A DNA stretch of 64,000 nt from Sporosarcina ureae (GTDB taxonomy: Bacteria > Bacillota > Bacilli > Bacillales_A > Planococcaceae): contig NZ_CP015348.1 of the NCBI RefSeq assembly GCF_002109325.1, positions 2,109,501 through 2,173,500 on the forward strand, read 5' to 3'. Made by a program: the position numbers and the translations under genes. A model generated the notes under the pieces. That model did not search any database. It was not told the DNA's origin and saw only the letters and a program-made list of their open reading frames with translations. Each line of letters starts with the position of its first letter. Position 1 is the stretch's first letter. Shown piece after piece: positions 40,206-52,377 of the stretch.

Positions 40206-40312
40206 ACTCTTATCAAGAGCGGCGGAGGGATTAGGCCCTGTGATGCCCGGCAACCGGCGAAAGCAAAGGTGCTACTTCCTACAAACTATAAGTAGTTTGG
40301 AAGATAAGGGAG
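40206..40312 (+). ncRNA. SAM-I (S-box) riboswitch aptamer
   Basis: The S-box hallmark CTCTTATCAAGAGCGGCGGA followed by GGGATTAGGCCC, GATGCCCGGCAACC and GCAAAGGTGC is present in order. P1 forms between CTTATC (40209-40214) and GATAAG (40302-40307). A terminator follows at 40330. With SAM bound, transcription of metY should stop. Confidence 0.97.
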
Positions 40313-44033: not shown

Positions 44034-44042
44034 TGATATACT
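44034..44042 (+). promoter_or_regulatory. Extended -10 promoter of the B12 operon
   Basis: TGATATACT (TGnTATACT), about 28 bp before the riboswitch. No convincing -35. Confidence 0.55.
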
Positions 44043-44069
44043 ATTGTAAAATTGAATAGAATATTTTGG

Positions 44070-44265
44070 TTCTTTACATTACTGTAAAGATGAAAAAGGA
44101 AACAGGTGAAATTCCTGTACGGTCCGGCCACTGTAAATGGGAAGTATCTTCAGAATACCACTGGTGAAAAACTGGGAAGGTTGAAGATGTGATGATCCAT
44201 AAGTCAGGAGACTTGCCAAAATAACATGCGTTACGCCTCCCAGGAAGAGGTATGCATATTGTATT
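44070..44265 (+). ncRNA. Cobalamin (adenosylcobalamin) riboswitch
   Basis: Conserved elements in order: ACAGGTGAAATTCCTGTACGG (44102-44122), CCGGCCACTGTAA (44123-44136) and the B12 box AAGTCAGGAGACTTGCC (44201-44217), followed by a small hairpin region (GCGTTACGCCTCCC..GGAAGAGG). A terminator lies ~45 nt downstream. Cobalamin binding should switch the operon off. Confidence 0.95.
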
Positions 44266-44306
44266 GGATGTAATAAGTTAGTAGCTGAAGTCCGTCTATA
44301 CATAGT

Positions 44307-44340
44307 GCCCTTGTCTCTTTCTGGAGGCAAGGGCTTTTTT
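44307..44340 (+). terminator. Cobalamin riboswitch terminator
   Basis: GCCCTTG / CAAGGGC stem, 14-nt loop, six Ts; 39 nt before the first start codon. Confidence 0.9.
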
Positions 44341-44378
44341 GTGTTCAATTTACCAAACTAGGACGAGGGGGAATTGAT

Positions 44379-46508
44379 TTGTTTAAGCGTTATGTATCCA
44401 TCATGGCAAGTGTTTTACTAGCAGTAACGATGCTGTTACCTGGAAGTAGTTCAGTTGCTTTAGCTAATACGGAGGTTCAGCAGACTAACACGAGCATGCA
44501 AGCTGCTACTTATACGATAGATATAGAAGTAGAAGGCTTAGCGGGTGTGATTTTAAAGGAACCGATTCAAATTACAGAGGGACAAAATGCATTAGATGCG
44601 CTGAAGAAAGCATTGGATAGTAAAAGCATAGACTACTCAATCACAGAAAGTGAATGGGGAGCTTATGTATCTTCTATTAATAATGAAGAAGCAGGTTCTT
44701 TAGGACATTGGGATGGCTGGATGTACTCGGTTAACGGTAAGGAACCAAATGTCGGTGCATCGGCTTACGTACTAGAGCAACAAGACAAATTACGCTTCTA
44801 TTATGGACGTTACGCAAGTTTATCTACGTCTGGAAGTATCCAGACAGGCTCAGATTCATCAATTACGGTAAATTTAAAAGGCGATACGTTTACTGATCAT
44901 GCAACGAATCCAACAAATTGGGTTAGCAATCAGTCGAATGTGGAAATCATTTCAATTACGAAAAAATCAAATCAACAAGTAGTCATTCAATTCAAAGGAA
45001 CATTAGAACAAGGATTCTTTCAAATTACTCCTATAGACAAGGTGACAGTAGGGGGAAAAGCGAATTCATTAACTGTTGAAGTTACTGAGGAATTAACACG
45101 AACTCAAGATGCAATTCAAAAAGCGGCAAAACAAATGATGCAAGGTCCAATCCAAAGTGAATGGGAAGCAATTGGATTAACAAAAGCGGGTTTTGATATT
45201 CACGCTGATTATGAAGAATCATTTTATAGTAACTTTGAGGATCAAATCTTAAAGAAAACAGGAAAAGGTCGTCTGAAAATAACGGATGTTGAAAGAATAG
45301 CAATGGCTGCCGTCGCTATTGGAAAAGATCCAAAGAATGTAAAGCAATTTGACTTAATCGAGAAGATTTACAACAGTGAAAACTGGACTTACCTAGACTC
45401 TGATAGCATGACGTATCAAGGTAATAATGGTCCAATCTTTGCACTCATTGCATTGGATACAAAAAACTATTCCGTACCAGAGAATGCCCGTTGGAATCGT
45501 GAAAAGATTGTTGCTGAGCTATTGAGAACACAATTAGTAGATGGATCATGGAGTCTTGCAAATGATCCTCCAGGAAAGACTAGCTATGACATTACTGCCA
45601 TGGCGCTAATAGGATTGGCTCCTTATACGGATCAACCCGCTGTTAAAAATGCAGTGGAACAGGCAGTAAACTTTTTATCAAAGAACCAAGGTGCAACTGG
45701 CGGGTTTAATGAGGAGTTTGTAGGCGGTATTTCAAGTGAAGCTACTTCACAAGTGATTATCGGATTAACAGCAAATAACATTAATCCACAAAGTGAAAAG
45801 TTCACTAAGAATGGTATCAACTTGATCGATCATCTTTTAAGCTTCCAAGCTGAGGATGGTGGTTTCAAACATACAATTGGTGAAAAGGGTTCAAATGGTA
45901 TGGCAACTGAGCAGGCACTACAAGGTTTAGTTGCGTATGACTTATTTACAAAAGGTGAAGGACGTCTATATGACTTTTCGAAAGAAATTTCACAGACCAA
46001 CCCTGAAATTGAACAAAATACGGCTATATTAAAAGGTCTATTGAATGGTAGTCTATTAAACATTCAGAAGAGTAAAGATAATATTTGGTCTCCTATAGCA
46101 CTTGAAAATGCACAAGCCAAAGAAGGATACTTCATCGTTCAAGCTGGAGAAAATGGTACTAAAAAAGAAGTGAAAGTACCGAATGGAACGAAAAAAGTAT
46201 TCTTAGTCGATAACGATCGTTCATATAAGGATTTCGATATTGCTGTAGTTACGCCGAACAAACCATGGACAATCACATTTAATGAAACGGTAAAGGATTC
46301 AGTAGATAACCTTTCAAAAATCTACGTTGAAGATATCCAAGGTAGTAAAGTTCCAGTAAATGTAACGGCGAATGGAAATAAAGTGACTGTTACACCGCAA
46401 TCGAACTATACAAGTGGACGACTTTATTCATTATTTATTGTTGAACCGGTATCGGATAAAGATACAACACTTAAACAAGCAACACGTAAACTATTCATCA
46501 TCCAATAA
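44379..46508 (+). CDS. Secreted intrinsic-factor-like protein (DUF4430 + alpha6/alpha6 toroid)
   Basis: 709-aa secreted protein. Signal peptide 1-29 (cleavage after VALA). Residues ~45-150 are DUF4430, the transcobalamin beta-domain fold (ITEGQNALDALKKAL, WDGWMYSVNGKEPNVGASAY). Residues ~240-540 form an alpha6/alpha6 toroid with repeated motifs (SMTYQGNNGPIFALIALDT, SYDITAMALIGLAPYTDQPA, SSEATSQVIIGLTANN, GMATEQALQGLVAYDLF). Residues ~570-709 are an Ig/SbsA-like domain. Human intrinsic factor and transcobalamin use the same two folds, toroid first. TTG start behind GAGGGGG. First gene after the cobalamin riboswitch; probably captures B12. No cell-wall anchor is seen, so it may be released or held by the C-terminal domain. 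Confidence 0.85.
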   Translation: MFKRYVSIMASVLLAVTMLLPGSSSVALANTEVQQTNTSMQAATYTIDIEVEGLAGVILKEPIQITEGQNALDALKKALDSKSIDYSITESEWGAYVSSINNEEAGSLGHWDGWMYSVNGKEPNVGASAYVLEQQDKLRFYYGRYASLSTSGSIQTGSDSSITVNLKGDTFTDHATNPTNWVSNQSNVEIISITKKSNQQVVIQFKGTLEQGFFQITPIDKVTVGGKANSLTVEVTEELTRTQDAIQKAAKQMMQGPIQSEWEAIGLTKAGFDIHADYEESFYSNFEDQILKKTGKGRLKITDVERIAMAAVAIGKDPKNVKQFDLIEKIYNSENWTYLDSDSMTYQGNNGPIFALIALDTKNYSVPENARWNREKIVAELLRTQLVDGSWSLANDPPGKTSYDITAMALIGLAPYTDQPAVKNAVEQAVNFLSKNQGATGGFNEEFVGGISSEATSQVIIGLTANNINPQSEKFTKNGINLIDHLLSFQAEDGGFKHTIGEKGSNGMATEQALQGLVAYDLFTKGEGRLYDFSKEISQTNPEIEQNTAILKGLLNGSLLNIQKSKDNIWSPIALENAQAKEGYFIVQAGENGTKKEVKVPNGTKKVFLVDNDRSYKDFDIAVVTPNKPWTITFNETVKDSVDNLSKIYVEDIQGSKVPVNVTANGNKVTVTPQSNYTSGRLYSLFIVEPVSDKDTTLKQATRKLFIIQ

Positions 46509-46545
46509 GACACTTTTTAAAAGAAGAACATAGGAGGTATGCGTT

Positions 46546-48930
46546 ATTTCTATCATCAAAAATTTCACGAAAATAACAGCAGCATTCGCATTGGCGAGTG
46601 CAGCTGTCCTCATGCCGATTGCTCCTTCATTTGCAGAGCAACCGACGCCGATCTATGAAAATCAATCTACACAGACATTACAGCACTCTATTACCATCTC
46701 TTCTACAGAGATACCGATGCCTCTTTCTACTGTGGAAGTCCATGAAGGTGACACAGTTCTAAGCGTATTAAAACGCAGCGTAAAGGCTAACGACATAAAA
46801 ATGAAATATAGAGGCGGCGATGGCGAGACCGCTTATGTTGAATCAATTAATGAAGTAGCAGAATTCGACCGCGGACAAGGCAGCGGCTGGATGTACAGCG
46901 TCAACGGTACCTTCCCGAATCGTGGAGCCGGTGTCATTAAGCTTATCCCTGGCGATAAAGTGGAATGGAAATATACGACGGATTTAGGTAAGGATCTAAA
47001 CGCGGATCTATTCCCGTTCCGTGAAGACTTGGAGCCTAAGATTTCAGTATCAGGAGTGACTTCCGGAACAACCGTTACGAAGTCTACTCTTTCCTTCCAA
47101 GTGAACGCAGCTAGTTATTTCGGCACAGCACTTCAGCCGACTGCTACTGTAAATGGTAAGCAAACAGTTGTGACGGGAAATACAGTAAACGCAGTATTGC
47201 AAAATGGTGAGAATACTATCGTTTTGAAGGCGACGGATGCGAAGAATGATTCGGTTACGAAAACAATGAAGGTTACGTACGCGCCAACTGCGAAACCTGA
47301 ACCGAACCCTTCACCAAATCCAAACCCAAACCCAGTACCAAACCCAAACCCACCAACGGAGCCACCGGTAGTGAAGCCAGAACCGGAAACACCGTCTGCT
47401 AAAGATTATGCTCAGCTTGTCACTTCAGCAATCGACAAGGCAAGTGCGCAGATGCTTTCTAGTTCGATCGAAAGTGAATGGCAGGCAATCGGACTTGTGA
47501 AAGCAGGTAAGAAAGTTCCGGCTTCTTATAATAAAGCGTTCTATGAAAACCTGAAGGATCAAGTGACGAGCCGATCTGGCAAAGGTCGCATGAAGATTAC
47601 GGATGTAGAACGTTTAGCGATGGCAGCCGCAGCAATCGGTATTGATCCGATGAACGCAGACGGCAAAGGATTTAATTTAATTGATAAAATCTTAAATAGT
47701 GAAAAGCATTTGACAGGCGCAGATAGCCTGACGTATCAAGGGAATAACGGTATTATCTTCGCGTTAATTGCATTGGATACTAGAAATTATCAAGTGCCGA
47801 GCCATTCGAAATGGACGCGTGAAAGTCTAGTTGCAGAACTATTGAAACATCAGAAAGACGATGGTTCATGGAGCCTGTCAACGAGTAAAGAAGGATCAAC
47901 GAGCTATGATATTACGGCAATGGCGTTAATCGGAATTGCACCGTATACCGATCAGCCGAAAGTTCGTCAAGCGATGGACCGGGCAGTGAAGTTCTTGGCG
48001 GATGCACAAGGTCCAACAGGTGGTTTTGATGAAGCATTTGTTGGTGGTATTTCCAGTGAAGCGACGTCACAAGTCATTATCGGCTTGACTGCGAATCAAA
48101 TCGATCCACGTATGCCCATGTTTACAAAGAACGGCATTAACTTGATCGATCACCTATTGAGTTTCCAGACATCTGACGGTGGATTCCAGCATACAGCGGG
48201 TGATAGCCGATCGAATAGCATGGCCACAGAGCAAGCTTTGCAAGCATTAGTAGCATTTGATTTATTCACGAAAAATAAAGGTGTATTGTACGACTTCAAA
48301 GATGTACCGGTTCTTCCGGCACCAAAGCCAGATCCTGAACCAACACCTAACCCAGATCCGAAACCAGAACCAGAACCAGAACCCACTCCAACTCCACAGT
48401 TTACGGATGTTACAGGGCACTGGGCAAATGAATATATTAATCAGGCGGTTGAGCAAGGAATCGTAAGCGGTTATGAGGATCATACGTTCAAGCCGAATCA
48501 ATCATTGACGCGTGCTCAAGCGGTATCTATTATTGTGCGGGCGTTGGACTTGAAGACGGATAAGAAAGCACCATTCTTGGATACGCAAAATTATGCGTCA
48601 AGCACGCAAGCACAAATTGCGGCTGCCTACCATAATGGTATTGTGAATGGAAAAGACGGTAAATTTATGCCGGCACAAAAAGTAACGCGTGCTCAAATGG
48701 CATTGATGTTATTCCGTGCGTATGAAGTGAAGAATGGTGAAGCGTATACGATTAAGCAAGTAGCGCCTTTCCGTGATATTCATTCATACAATATGGAAGC
48801 GATACGGGCGATGACGATGCTATATGATTTGAATATGGCTAAGGGAGAAAAAGGCAACTTCATGCCAAATAACTCTACGTCTCGTGCACATGCAGTAAAA
48901 ATGTTAATCGAGTTTTTGAATACAAAATGA
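46546..48930 (+). CDS. SLH-anchored intrinsic-factor-like protein; apparent AUU start
   Basis: About 794-aa paralogue of the preceding gene product. Domains: signal peptide (1-31, SIIKNFTK..., cut after SFA), DUF4430 (~45-150, GSGWMYSVNGTFPNRGAG), an Ig-like domain (~165-245), a Pro/Asn-rich linker, the alpha6/alpha6 toroid (~290-590, very close to the first protein), a second Pro/Glu linker and three SLH repeats (~630-794) that bind secondary cell-wall polymer. The only well-placed initiation site is ATT at 46546, 8 nt after AGGAGG; ATG 46539 is out of frame and TTG 46591 would cut into the signal peptide. No terminator separates it from the first gene, so both obey the cobalamin riboswitch. 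Confidence 0.85.
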   Translation: MSIIKNFTKITAAFALASAAVLMPIAPSFAEQPTPIYENQSTQTLQHSITISSTEIPMPLSTVEVHEGDTVLSVLKRSVKANDIKMKYRGGDGETAYVESINEVAEFDRGQGSGWMYSVNGTFPNRGAGVIKLIPGDKVEWKYTTDLGKDLNADLFPFREDLEPKISVSGVTSGTTVTKSTLSFQVNAASYFGTALQPTATVNGKQTVVTGNTVNAVLQNGENTIVLKATDAKNDSVTKTMKVTYAPTAKPEPNPSPNPNPNPVPNPNPPTEPPVVKPEPETPSAKDYAQLVTSAIDKASAQMLSSSIESEWQAIGLVKAGKKVPASYNKAFYENLKDQVTSRSGKGRMKITDVERLAMAAAAIGIDPMNADGKGFNLIDKILNSEKHLTGADSLTYQGNNGIIFALIALDTRNYQVPSHSKWTRESLVAELLKHQKDDGSWSLSTSKEGSTSYDITAMALIGIAPYTDQPKVRQAMDRAVKFLADAQGPTGGFDEAFVGGISSEATSQVIIGLTANQIDPRMPMFTKNGINLIDHLLSFQTSDGGFQHTAGDSRSNSMATEQALQALVAFDLFTKNKGVLYDFKDVPVLPAPKPDPEPTPNPDPKPEPEPEPTPTPQFTDVTGHWANEYINQAVEQGIVSGYEDHTFKPNQSLTRAQAVSIIVRALDLKTDKKAPFLDTQNYASSTQAQIAAAYHNGIVNGKDGKFMPAQKVTRAQMALMLFRAYEVKNGEAYTIKQVAPFRDIHSYNMEAIRAMTMLYDLNMAKGEKGNFMPNNSTSRAHAVKMLIEFLNTK

Positions 48931-48936
48931 TCAGGC

Positions 48937-48963
48937 AATCTTGCATCCACGTGGTGCAAGATT
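48937..48963 (+). terminator. Intra-operon hairpin
   Basis: AATCTTGCA / TGCAAGATT, 9-nt loop, weak tail without a T run. Probably a partial terminator or RNA-stability element that lowers ECF expression relative to the surface proteins. Confidence 0.4.
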
Positions 48964-49007
48964 ATCTGTCTTTATCGTAGATTGTGTGGAGAGAGAGGGG
49001 AAGGGCT

Positions 49008-49886
49008 GTGGGCAATGGAATACAGGCAATTCACCCTTTCGTAATGTTTTTCTATTATATTTGCATAGGATTTTTTGCGATGTTTTTTAACCACCCGCTC
49101 TTTTTGCTGGGGGGCAGTCTTTCATTGATTGCAGTCAATTTATCACATGACGGCGGTCGAGCTATGAAGCAGTGGGCACCGTTGATGATCGTGATGACGG
49201 TAGTTATTATTGTGATCAATCCGTTCATTAATTCAAGAGGGACGCATGTGTGGTTTTATATTTTCAGGAAACAAGTGACGTACGAAGCGACGCTATATGG
49301 TGTCGTGACGGCACTGTCGCTGTTGATGATACTGCTAGTCTTCGTTTCGCTAAACAATGTGTTGAATGGCAATAAATTATTATACATATTTGCAAGAATC
49401 TTACCACGTACCGCTTTTTTGATTATGATGTCGATTCGTTTCGTACCGTTATTGAAAAGACGTTTAACGGAAATACAGGATGTACAACGGTTGAAAGGAA
49501 TGACTATGACACAAGGGACGTTGCGTGAAAGAGCAAAGAGTGGCATGTCGATGTTGCAAATTCTATTGTCGTGGTCATTGGAAGAAGCTGTAGAAACAGC
49601 AGATTCGATGAAAGCAAGAGGCTATGGTTTAGGTAAACGACGACCTTATATCCCCTATCGCATGACGAAATCTGATACGTACTGGTTGAGCTATTTAGTT
49701 TTATTTTTTGCTTTATGTGTCACGGGTGGGTTGATGGGGTTTGGAAAAATCATGATTTATCCGGAACTAGGTACATTGCATTTGTCGTTCTCTGATTGGA
49801 TAGTATTCATTTGCGGAATGGCCATTGCGTTGTTTCCAGTATTTGTAGAGGGGAGAGAACAACTGAAATGGAATTATTCAATTTGA
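49008..49886 (+). CDS. ecfT: ECF transporter T component (EcfT/CbiQ family)
   Basis: 292-aa transmembrane coupling subunit with five to six TM helices. The cytoplasmic coupling motifs include ADSMKARGYG (~residues 195-204), carrying the Ala-Arg-Gly signature that docks on the ATPases; the first arm is around RFVPLLKRRLTEIQDVQRLKG. GTG 49008 follows AGGGGAAGGG; the longer ORF start is unsupported. Lies 77 nt after the SLH protein gene and overlaps the ATPase gene by 19 nt. Inferred job: energy coupling for vitamin B12 uptake. Confidence 0.88.
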   Translation: MGNGIQAIHPFVMFFYYICIGFFAMFFNHPLFLLGGSLSLIAVNLSHDGGRAMKQWAPLMIVMTVVIIVINPFINSRGTHVWFYIFRKQVTYEATLYGVVTALSLLMILLVFVSLNNVLNGNKLLYIFARILPRTAFLIMMSIRFVPLLKRRLTEIQDVQRLKGMTMTQGTLRERAKSGMSMLQILLSWSLEEAVETADSMKARGYGLGKRRPYIPYRMTKSDTYWLSYLVLFFALCVTGGLMGFGKIMIYPELGTLHLSFSDWIVFICGMAIALFPVFVEGREQLKWNYSI

Positions 49887-51541
49887 AGCACGTCTCGTTT
49901 TCTTTTCCTACTACAGATCAGCAAGTGCTATCGGACGTTACACTTTCCGTTAATGAAGGGGAATTCCTCGTTATTGGCGGTGCTAGTGGCAGTGGCAAGA
50001 CGACTTTATTGAAACTGCTGAAGAGGGAATTGACGCCTGTCGGGAAGCTCGAAGGTGATATTTTGTATAAAAATAAACCGATCAGCGAGTGGGAAGAGAG
50101 GCAGATGGTCGAACAAGTAGGCTATGTGTTCCAAGATCCGGACAATCAAATCATCATGGATGAAGTGATGCAGGAGATTGTCTTTGGGCTAGAAAATTTA
50201 GGGTGTTCAACGTTTGAAATGCGCAAGCGTGTAGCGGAAATGGTGCATTTTTTCGGAGTAGAGGGCTTGTTGAATGCAAAACCTTCCGAGTTGTCTGGTG
50301 GCCAGAAGCAATTATTGAATCTATTATCCGTACTGCTCATGAAGCCTCGTGTACTATTACTCGATGAACCGACATCACAACTTGATCCGGTGGCAGCAAA
50401 AGAATTAGTGCTGATGCTGGAACGATTGAATAAAGAAGCTGGTATGACAATCGTATTGGTGGAGCATCGTTTGGAAGAATTATATGCAGTGGCAGATCGT
50501 GTCGTTTTGATGGAATCAGGAAAGATTCGATATGAAGGGAATAGTCGACAAGTGATCGGTAATCTGTACGCAGAGGAAGCGTCGCAGTTCTTTCCGTATG
50601 TACCTGCTTTTGCACGGCTTTATATGGAATTTGAAGAAAATCCCGTTGTCTCTGCAATACCGCTTACGGTGAAAGAATGTAAACAGTGGATTGGCCGGGA
50701 AGAGCGGCAGATCGTGCCTGTTGAATTGCAATCTATCCTATCTAAGAAGCAAATAATACTTGAAATGGATGATGTGTTTTTCCAATATCAAAAGAAAGCG
50801 CCTTTTATCTTGAAGAGTTTTACGTTGCGCATCCAAAAAGGCCAGTTCTTTGCGATGGTCGGAGGAAATGGTAGCGGGAAGACGACTGCATTACGTGCAG
50901 GTCTTGGCAGTATTAAACCACAGCGAGGTAAGGTGCGTTTACTTGGGCAAGACATGAAGAAGATGAAGGATTCTGAGTGGCTTGGGAAAATTGCCTACTT
51001 ACCGCAAAATCCGCGAACGTATTTTGTTCAGCAAACGATTGAAGAAGAGATGCAAACGATTGGGGAGCGCTTAAAGCTATCCGATACGAAAGAACGTATG
51101 AACCGTCTGCTTGAGTCGTTTGGGATTTCCCATTTACGTGCGCGTCATCCGTATGATTGTTCAGGTGGCGAAGTTCAGAAAGCGGCCCTTGCCTGTATTC
51201 TGATGGGTGAGCCTGAAATGTTGTTCATTGATGAGCCGACTAAGGGGATGGATCCAGTGTCTAAACGACATCTCGGCGAGTTATTATATGGGTTGCAGCA
51301 AGACGGACTGACTATTTTCATGGTGACACATGATATCGGCTTTGCAGCGAGTTATGCAGAGCGATGTGCGATGATGTTCGACGGTGAAATAGCAGCAGAC
51401 GGTACACCAGATGAATTATTCAAAGGCAATTATTTCTACACGACGGCGATTAATCGAGCGACAAGGGAAACTAGGCGGCCGGAAGTGTTGACGTATGAGG
51501 AGGCTGCTGCCACATGGGGCGTTCGCGAAAGTACTTATTGA
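49868..51541 (+). CDS. ecfA: ECF transporter fused double ATPase (EcfA-EcfA')
   Basis: 557-aa protein with two complete ABC domains. Domain 1: Walker A GGASGSGKTT (~38-47), signature LSGGQKQ, Walker B VLLLDEP. Domain 2 (from ~300): Walker A GGNGSGKTT, signature CSGGEVQ, Walker B MLFIDEP. Fused ATPases of this kind serve dedicated (group I-like) ECF importers. ATG 49868 follows GAGGGGAGAG. Overlaps both neighbours (19 nt with ecfT, 28 nt with the S component), so the three are tightly coupled. Confidence 0.9.
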   Translation: MELFNLKHVSFSFPTTDQQVLSDVTLSVNEGEFLVIGGASGSGKTTLLKLLKRELTPVGKLEGDILYKNKPISEWEERQMVEQVGYVFQDPDNQIIMDEVMQEIVFGLENLGCSTFEMRKRVAEMVHFFGVEGLLNAKPSELSGGQKQLLNLLSVLLMKPRVLLLDEPTSQLDPVAAKELVLMLERLNKEAGMTIVLVEHRLEELYAVADRVVLMESGKIRYEGNSRQVIGNLYAEEASQFFPYVPAFARLYMEFEENPVVSAIPLTVKECKQWIGREERQIVPVELQSILSKKQIILEMDDVFFQYQKKAPFILKSFTLRIQKGQFFAMVGGNGSGKTTALRAGLGSIKPQRGKVRLLGQDMKKMKDSEWLGKIAYLPQNPRTYFVQQTIEEEMQTIGERLKLSDTKERMNRLLESFGISHLRARHPYDCSGGEVQKAALACILMGEPEMLFIDEPTKGMDPVSKRHLGELLYGLQQDGLTIFMVTHDIGFAASYAERCAMMFDGEIAADGTPDELFKGNYFYTTAINRATRETRRPEVLTYEEAAATWGVRESTY

Positions 51542-52212
51542 TAGTATCGGTCATATTATTGGCGTTACTCGTGATTTCAATTGTTTTCTTTCATTATAAA
51601 GCCTATCTTCTATTGAGTATGATTATGATTGCGGCGATTATGATACCTTTCTTTGCTCGTTTTGAGTGGCGGGATGTAGGGGGAAGGGAAGTCGTTTTAC
51701 TAGCCATGATGGCAGCTATTGCAGCAGTCGGGCGCGTGCCATTTGCAGGACTTCCGAGTATCCAACCGACTTCATTTATTATCATTATGGCAGGATTGGT
51801 TTTTGGGGCGGAGTCGGGCTTTATCGTTGGAGCAGTGGCGGCGATTGTTTCGAATTTCTTCCTAGGACAAGGTCCATGGACGCCTTGGCAGATGTACGGA
51901 TGGGGCATGATGGGGATGACAGCCGGATTATTGCGTAACACGTCATGGATGAAAACATTATGGGGGAAATGTACATTTGGTTTCATCTGGGGCTATATTT
52001 TCGGTTGGATCATGAATATGTGGGTGATTGTTGGAAATATCGAAGCGCTGACGTGGAGTTATGTCGTTGGAATCTTCGTTTCGAGTATCTACTTTGACTT
52101 GGCGCATGCTGTATCGAATGTATTTTTCATTGTAGTGTTTAGTGCCAGTTGGATGAAGATCTTGCGACGAATTCAGGGGAAGTATGGATTGTTGCAGGAA
52201 CAGCCTGGATAG
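51514..52212 (+). CDS. ECF transporter S component, predicted cobalamin-specific
   Basis: 232-aa integral membrane protein with six or more TM helices. Recognisable S-component features: a two-helix N-terminal extension, then LLAMMAAIAAVGRVPFAGLP with the Ala-rich interface helix (~residues 64-83), FGAESGFIVGAVAAIVSNFFLGQGPWTPWQM (~108-138). It binds the vitamin. Cobalamin specificity is inferred from the riboswitch and the B12-binding-type surface proteins in the same operon, and is compatible with the predicted CblT group. AGGAGG precedes the ATG by 10 nt. Confidence 0.8.
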   Translation: MGRSRKYLLIVSVILLALLVISIVFFHYKAYLLLSMIMIAAIMIPFFARFEWRDVGGREVVLLAMMAAIAAVGRVPFAGLPSIQPTSFIIIMAGLVFGAESGFIVGAVAAIVSNFFLGQGPWTPWQMYGWGMMGMTAGLLRNTSWMKTLWGKCTFGFIWGYIFGWIMNMWVIVGNIEALTWSYVVGIFVSSIYFDLAHAVSNVFFIVVFSASWMKILRRIQGKYGLLQEQPG

Positions 52213-52242
52213 GAAAGGCTGAGACAAAACCTAATGAAATAG

Positions 52243-52292
52243 AAAAACCGCGTGAATCCAATTTACCAGCACATTGGGTTCACGCGGTTTTT
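52243..52292 (+). terminator. Terminator of the B12 operon
   Basis: AAAAACCGCGTGAA-CCAAT / ATTGG-TTCACGCGGTTTTT, a long stem with T and A runs on both sides. Confidence 0.95.
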
Positions 52293-52377
52293 ATTTTGGT
52301 CCTTTTACTTGGAATAGATTTTCTGCTTAGGTCTCAGCACTTTCAAAATGACGATTTACTAGTGCTACATTCTAAAT

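Follow-up and report, generated by a model that had tools for sequence, protein, structure and literature searches.

We identified an operon in Sporosarcina ureae that very probably serves the B12-repressed capture and import of corrinoids. The operon couples a cobalamin riboswitch to two apparently secreted proteins, here called P1 and P2, each of which combines a DUF4430 domain with an alpha/alpha toroid, and to a complete energy-coupling factor (ECF) transporter. The window analyzed is a stretch of 64,000 nucleotides (contig NZ_CP015348.1, positions 2,109,501 to 2,173,500) from the 3.38 Mb genome of this soil bacterium of the S. ureae group of Sporosarcina. Within the window the operon spans positions 44050–52300 and consists of a riboswitch leader, the genes for P1 and P2, ecfT, a fused double ecfA, the gene for an S component, and a terminator. 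Every gene is on the + strand, and the ecfA and S component genes each overlap the gene that precedes them. An earlier note made from the sequence alone had listed these parts and described a one-strand layout with overlaps in the ECF portion; the parts were recovered with Rfam, Pfam and TIGR models, and the layout is as described. The closest named relatives, as measured by 89–98% identity in the P2 toroid, are two S. ureae loci and Sporosarcina sp. P32b.

Association with cobalamin riboswitches

The connection to B12 is supported by the conservation of the riboswitch across genomes. In a family set of 121 genomes, 38 contain DUF4430, in a total of 56 gene clusters. A cobalamin aptamer is found on the same strand within 6.1 kb upstream of 53 of the 56 clusters (31 among the matches listed, and another 22 when Rfam was applied to the remaining 25). 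There are at least 246 cobalamin aptamer matches in the 38 genomes, or approximately 6.5 per genome, so chance would be expected to account for well under one of the 56 clusters and the association is not a chance one. Transporter genes accompany most of the 56 loci, with ecfT present in 47, ecfA in 48, and an S component in 35. These gene counts, and those for the wider set below, are lower bounds; some loci end at contig ends or at flank limits.

A wider set consists of the best 79 of 281 confirmed relatives, which belong to the Bacillota (Bacilli and Clostridia) and share at least six loci with the family set (L098, L099, L100, L103, L130 and L134). A scan using P1 alone as the query returned no confirmed relative, and an alignment of closer relatives was needed to find the loci. 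DUF4430 occurs in 77 of the 79 loci, ecfT in 66, ecfA in 67, and an S component in 65; EcfT and EcfA are found together in 66, and toroid, EcfT, EcfA and S component together in 64. To search these loci we used our own aptamer model, R1, built from 28 aptamers (27 of them from family loci) with 19 base pairs; the small number of pairs and the choice of training aptamers, taken from the vicinity of DUF4430 genes, make it biased. Both strands of 1.33 Mb were searched with R1, which gave 68 matches at E ≤ 0.1, every one of them on the same strand as the matched toroid gene. The matches fall in 67 loci. In 63 of the 79, a DUF4430 or toroid gene has an aptamer no more than 410 nt upstream, and in 61 of these the gene is the first of its kind in the stretch examined. 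When eight loci with a weak R1 match or none were rechecked with Rfam, L150 was positive and L116, L127, L144, L152, L155, L166 and L167 were empty, bringing the total to 64 of 79. Homologous operons are thus overwhelmingly under cobalamin riboswitches (53 of 56 and 64 of 79), rather than consistently under a different switch, which the earlier note had named as an outcome that would refute its interpretation.

The riboswitch leader and terminators

The leader begins with a cobalamin aptamer (RF00174; positions 44050–44234, + strand) that matches the full model length with 119 bits (E 3.1e-29), compared with a gathering score of 31.5. An intrinsic terminator with a 12-pair stem and a run of six T residues is found at positions 44307–44334. 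A mutually exclusive antiterminator fold (44235–44328) pairs bases just 3' of the aptamer with those that form the terminator stem, and is the minimum free energy fold of positions 44235–44345 (-38 kcal/mol, z -3.7). The leader is therefore arranged as a transcription attenuator with two competing folds. Among four other Sporosarcina loci, the leaders of L098 and L099 have the antiterminator as their minimum fold, and those of L100 and L101 the terminator. An aptamer above the gathering score together with an expression platform identifies this leader as an RF00174 riboswitch with a predicted response to ligand. From the usual behavior of such switches, we infer that it would be off at high cobalamin.

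The operon ends in a strong hairpin (52247–52296, + strand) in a region that folds with -31 kcal/mol (z -6.4) and that was missed by a scan for the terminator consensus. The earlier note had described this as the single strong terminator of the operon. The end hairpin is indeed strong, and it is possibly not the sole one, as a second hairpin of 11 pairs, with a weak T run that does not amount to a proper one, lies between the genes for P2 and EcfT (48937–48963, + strand). It is possible that this second hairpin adjusts how much transporter is made relative to the surface proteins.

Elsewhere in the window, an S-adenosylmethionine (SAM) riboswitch is found at positions 40207–40310 on the + strand (84.9 bits).

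Fold of the DUF4430 and toroid domains

The DUF4430 domain of P2 was modelled with AlphaFold2 (predicted local distance difference test score, pLDDT, 90) and the model compared with the PDB using Foldseek, with the PDB as the only database. At E ≤ 0.001 the model matches 19 chains, 17 of animal B12 carriers (transcobalamin, haptocorrin or intrinsic factor) and two of the bacterial structure 3u7z; the next match has an E value of 0.07. Template modelling (TM) scores against the animal carriers range from 0.68 to 0.78 when normalized by the query, with the human transcobalamin beta domain (5no0) at 0.78. According to the title of PDB entry 5np4 and to part of a published report (PMC5599065), the beta domain of transcobalamin alone binds cyanocobalamin. 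The relationship between DUF4430 and this beta domain suggested in the earlier note is thus matched by the predicted fold, and a fold unlike transcobalamin, which the note had named as a refuting outcome, did not appear. The same note called the system an analogue of the animal carriers; the modelled fold suggests homology between the beta domain and its animal counterpart rather than mere analogy.

The AlphaFold2 model of P1 (pLDDT 83) is confident for both the DUF4430 domain and the toroid, which has 13 helices. A structure search with the whole of P1 lists transcobalamin, often through approximately 105 columns consistent with the beta domain, beside cyclases and complement proteins. Kinship to the animal carriers was recovered only by structure comparison, as sequence searches with the whole of P1, with DUF4430, or with the toroid did not detect it.

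The surface proteins

P1 (44379–46508, + strand) starts at a TTG codon and consists of a signal peptide (identified by eye), DUF4430 (61 bits; residues ~68–143), a linker, a toroid (residues ~244–537, located with a hidden Markov model) and Big_5 (27 bits). P2 (46546–48930, + strand) consists of a signal peptide (also identified by eye), DUF4430 (74 bits), a linker, a toroid, and SLH domains (99 bits), of which Pfam detects two stretches and a custom SLH model three. The toroids of both proteins score below the Pfam cut-off. The designation of P1 and P2 as secreted surface proteins in the earlier note agrees with the signal peptides and, for P2, with the SLH domains; no anchor was found in P1 by Pfam.

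P2 most likely begins at a rare ATT codon at position 46546, judging from conservation and the ribosome binding site. This codon follows an AGGAGG at positions 46532–46537 with a spacing of 8 nt and is followed by a full signal peptide. It is retained in the window and in four other Sporosarcina loci (L098–L101), and in none of the five is there an in-frame ATG, GTG or TTG at or just before it. If only ATG, GTG and TTG are permitted, the start is at 46591.

The ECF transporter

The remainder of the operon encodes a complete ECF set, with a T component, two ATPase domains and an S component. EcfT belongs to the CbiQ family (PF02361, 41.7 bits) and probably starts at a GTG at position 49008 (49008–49886, + strand), by comparison with L099 and L100; the longest frame begins at 48984. 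EcfA is a fused EcfA-EcfA' double ATPase with two ABC_tran stretches, and thus two ABC domains, in a single chain that scores above the cut-off with both TIGR04520 and TIGR04521. Comparison with relatives places its start, again probably, at an ATG at position 49868 (49868–51541, + strand), within a longest frame that begins at 49796.

The S component (51514–52212, + strand) is assigned to ECF_trnsprt (PF12822) with 44 bits. A phmmer search with it detects chain 6fnp_A at an E value of 1.1e-12, and a family profile of 45 rows detects the same chain at 3.6e-27, with the next chain (4hzu_S) at 4.7e-4. The structure 6FNP is ECF-CbrT, which carries both cobalamin and cobinamide according to the portion of its report cited here (PMC5997447). 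By these sequence comparisons the S component is kin to the B12 importer CbrT, and a corresponding transport function is predicted.

An apparent fusion of the S component to the ECF ATPase, in single frames of 837–912 residues, is found in three loci from clostridial metagenome genomes (L150, L155 and L170).

Domain architecture of relatives

The usual gene order among relatives is one or more toroid proteins, with or without DUF4430 and SLH domains, followed by a DUF4430-only protein and then ecfT, ecfA and the S component. The toroid and the beta domain are often on separate polypeptides. Across the 79 loci, DUF4430 lies within 260 residues before the toroid for 68 toroid domains and within 260 residues after it for 43. 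A DUF4430-only gene is directly upstream of ecfT in 55 of the 66 loci with ecfT. A lipobox-like motif is present in 41 of 54 such proteins; of the rest, 12 have an N-terminal hydrophobic stretch and one has neither feature. DUF4430 is near the C-terminal end in these proteins. This lipoprotein was not found in the window operon or in the S. ureae-group loci L098–L100. S. obsidiansis (L101) has both the DUF4430-only gene and a DUF4430 domain in P2.

In a tree of 68 DUF4430 domains, that of P2 groups with the lipoprotein type (95/91, 17 rows) and that of P1 with the wall-type domains (97/89, 20 rows); the tree includes 66 domains taken from 28 loci chosen among the 79, plus the two of the window, and it has few columns and unsettled bootstraps. 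From these groupings it seems that a membrane-type domain was copied into the S-layer protein and that the lipoprotein was then lost in the S. ureae group. Filibacter encodes a single frame of 1637 residues, observed in both L073 (8447–13360, - strand) and L103, with two DUF4430, three toroid and three SLH domains. Such a frame unites in one chain the domains otherwise divided between P1 and P2, and so fits the idea that these two proteins act together.

A toroid/SLH protein of 2063 residues with ten DUF4430 domains is found in Calidifontibacillus (L128).

B12 physiology of the host and the corrinoid substrate

Eight cobalamin aptamers score above the Rfam threshold in the genome. Those outside the window operon include aptamers preceding a second DUF4430-toroid-ECF operon, a cobalamin-independent methionine synthase, a class I ribonucleotide reductase, a Peripla_BP_2 protein (L180), and a Peripla_BP_2/FecCD/ABC-CbiZ cluster with CbiB and CobU. 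Four B12-binding domains in the genome score above the cut-off. For biosynthesis, there is no match to CbiC in the genome, and the CbiF match does not qualify (165 bits against a cut-off of 260). On these two genes the host looks like a user and salvager of B12 rather than a maker.

The presence of salvage genes bears on which corrinoid is imported. It is possible that the substrate is cobinamide or another incomplete or alternative corrinoid, which the host then remodels, and we regard this as unlikely but worth serious consideration. The CbiB, CobU and CbiZ-type genes are riboswitch-linked and lie beside BtuF/FecCD-type genes, cobinamide is among the ligands carried by ECF-CbrT (PMC5997447), and the transcobalamin beta domain also binds it, as described in part of another report (PMC5599065). 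However, the salvage genes are located in another operon, and nothing that we noticed in the sequence prefers cobinamide over cobalamin. The two also need not be mutually exclusive substrates.

The second operon (G000:C1:322000-336500; L042/L043) encodes a DUF4430 protein of 691 residues, a toroid-only protein of 611 residues, a DUF4430 protein of 184 residues, EcfT and EcfA; no S component was seen there. The 184-residue protein has an N-terminal hydrophobic stretch, identified by eye, and could serve as a membrane-tethered partner for the window operon.

The genes that follow the second operon resemble, by eye, those for a MoxR-type ATPase, a DUF58 protein and a transglutaminase. Another aptamer of 114 bits (G000:C1:1368032-1368222; positions 533–723 of L177) precedes no same-strand frame longer than 98 codons over 3.4 kb, and the opposite-strand frames downstream resemble ABC transporter genes. 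This aptamer is possibly an orphan switch or the driver of an antisense RNA.

Proposed function and alternatives

The computed support for a corrinoid capture and import operon comprises the aptamer, the two leader folds, the domain content, the beta-domain fold of the predicted model, the kinship of the S component to CbrT, and the conserved association with riboswitches. At low intracellular cobalamin, the antiterminator would form and the operon would be transcribed; at high cobalamin, the aptamer would favor the terminator. P1 and P2 would be exported, and P2 would be retained by its SLH domains. DUF4430 and the toroid would then bind their ligand, cobalamin or cobinamide, within the cell wall or close to it, and the ligand would pass to the CbrT-type S component, with EcfT and the double EcfA driving its passage through the membrane. 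In this scheme it is the identity of the ligand, its binding, the location in the wall, the hand-over and the direction of transport that we infer.

Several observations weigh against this interpretation. The riboswitch alone does not name the substrate, because cobalamin riboswitches control cobalt importers too. The association is also incomplete. In the family set, Rfam finds no aptamer in three of the 56 clusters (L066, L067 and L074), which have only chance-level R1 matches. In the wider set, 15 of the 79 loci fall outside the 64. Three of the 15 have a more distant aptamer (787, 2428 and 6535 nt away), the only aptamer in L171 lies downstream of its genes, and six have none by Rfam (L116, L127, L144, L152, L155 and L167); in five of these six, ecfT was not found within the stretch examined. 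In L154 the aptamer precedes only the last DUF4430 gene. The other five of the 15 loci start at a contig end (L102, L156 and L166) or at a flank limit (L164 and L165), with the first DUF4430 or toroid gene no more than 300 nt in. At the level of sequence, a DUF4430 profile search detects no animal carrier at E ≤ 1, returning a weak match to 3u7z and chance-level matches. At E ≤ 0.1 the toroid profile retrieves squalene-hopene cyclases and not transcobalamin, along with TEP1 and alpha-2-macroglobulin. Thus, of the earlier note's identification of this region as the alpha6/alpha6 domain of intrinsic factor, the helical toroid is borne out by the model, and the sequence is nearer to squalene-hopene cyclases than to intrinsic factor. 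The P1 model has a predicted TM score (pTM) of 0.61 and low-confidence linkers, so the placement of its two domains relative to each other is not fixed. The order of domains also differs, as the animal carriers have the toroid at the N terminus and the beta domain at the C terminus, whereas DUF4430 comes first in P1 and P2. Finally, the genome has a riboswitch-linked BtuF/FecCD/ABC operon, and the window operon would therefore not be the sole route for B12.

We reject a cobalt importer under a cobalamin riboswitch as very improbable. The Pfam label of EcfT (CbiQ, 'cobalt transport protein') would suit such a function, and part of a published report describes a cobalt ECF importer under a cobalamin riboswitch in Clostridioides difficile (PMC11477304). 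However, the S component matches CbrT, none of the five operon proteins has a Pfam match to CbiM or CbiN, and a transcobalamin-type trap would not be needed for a metal. Additionally, an organism with no CbiC and no qualifying CbiF would gain little from importing cobalt for corrin synthesis. We consider it even less credible, and also reject, that the toroid proteins are enzymes of the squalene-hopene or class II terpene cyclase type acting on lipids or the wall, with an indirect link to B12, since despite squalene-hopene cyclases being the best solved relatives by toroid profile, the DxDD catalytic motif of class II terpene cyclases is absent from all 56 aligned toroids (its middle Asp is invariant) and the proteins are apparently secreted, occur fused to transcobalamin-type beta domains or encoded next to them, and are under cobalamin riboswitches.

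Within the interpretation as a capture and import operon, we tentatively suggest a more specific arrangement, which is somewhat doubtful: a split and reusable transcobalamin in which B12 is the glue. S-layer toroids and the beta domains of membrane lipoproteins would close in trans around the ligand and, with no need for proteolysis, open again at the CbrT-type S component. The operon would keep two kinds of beta domain, for the wall and for the membrane, and the S. ureae group would have moved the membrane type onto the S-layer toroid protein and lost the lipoprotein. This suggestion is based on the frequent separation of toroid and beta domain into different genes, the lipobox-like motifs in 41 of 54 DUF4430-only proteins, the grouping in the tree, the assembly of the human domains, and the need for proteolysis in animals. 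Passages of the respective reports describe how human transcobalamin domains expressed apart bind more weakly and assemble on cobalamin (PMC5599065), and how release of B12 from the animal carriers requires proteolysis (PMC11107200). Proteolytic release would be wasteful for a bacterium that feeds a transporter, and separate wall and membrane chains would suit reversible capture. A point against the split arrangement is that the membrane-tethered partner is missing from the window operon itself.

Comparison with known systems

Systems of this kind were described by Burroughs, Balaji, Iyer and Aravind in 2007 (PMC1796856), and the idea of B12 capture put forward in the earlier note is therefore a rediscovery. 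The portions of that paper considered here describe secreted proteins with SLBB and toroid domains in low-GC Gram-positive bacteria, occurring as pairs of paralogues in operons with CbiO and CbiQ. The hosts usually do not have key B12 synthesis genes, and scavenging of B12 was proposed. The same portions derive the animal carriers by transfer from low-GC Gram-positives, so that the origin runs in the reverse direction, from bacteria to animals. The window operon shares with these systems a secreted protein with SLBB and toroid domains (secretion being judged by eye), a second paralogue, CbiO and CbiQ, and its host shares the lack of B12 synthesis genes, for which CbiC and CbiF were tested. The SLBB domain of that clade presumably corresponds to DUF4430, given the fold match of the predicted model. 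The window operon is real and conserved, and is most likely a B12 or corrinoid capture and import system of the kind predicted in 2007.

A term search found neither 'riboswitch' nor 'S-layer' in the main text of the 2007 paper. Relative to the portions considered, the present analysis adds the riboswitch link and its statistics, the CbrT-type S component, the lipoprotein and SLH forms, the apparent domain transfer, and the conserved ATT start. In the open-licence literature in PubMed Central, we found no report linking DUF4430 to cobalamin riboswitches or to CbrT, and no bench tests of the bacterial proteins. If the interpretation is correct, many Gram-positive bacteria catch B12 in the wall before ECF import, using relatives of the carriers whose failure causes pernicious anaemia. 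This would matter for how organisms compete for B12 in soil and in the gut and provide bacterial stand-ins for intrinsic factor, and the 2007 proposal of carrier transfer from bacteria to animals would become testable with purified proteins.

P1 and P2 have in common with animal intrinsic factor, transcobalamin and haptocorrin the beta-domain fold, as seen in the predicted model, and a predicted alpha/alpha toroid partner. Unlike in the animal carriers, these two parts are often separate polypeptides in the bacterial relatives. ECF-CbrT of Lactobacillus delbrueckii shares with the window operon the S component family, EcfT and two ATPase domains. However, the cited portion of its report places cbrT in an nrdJ-cbrS-cbrT-pduO cluster (PMC5997447), whereas the window has a dedicated operon with a fused double ATPase and extracellular proteins. 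In the Gram-negative Bacteroides, surface lipoproteins capture B12 for a transporter, according to part of a published account (PMC6143338); the functional idea is the same.

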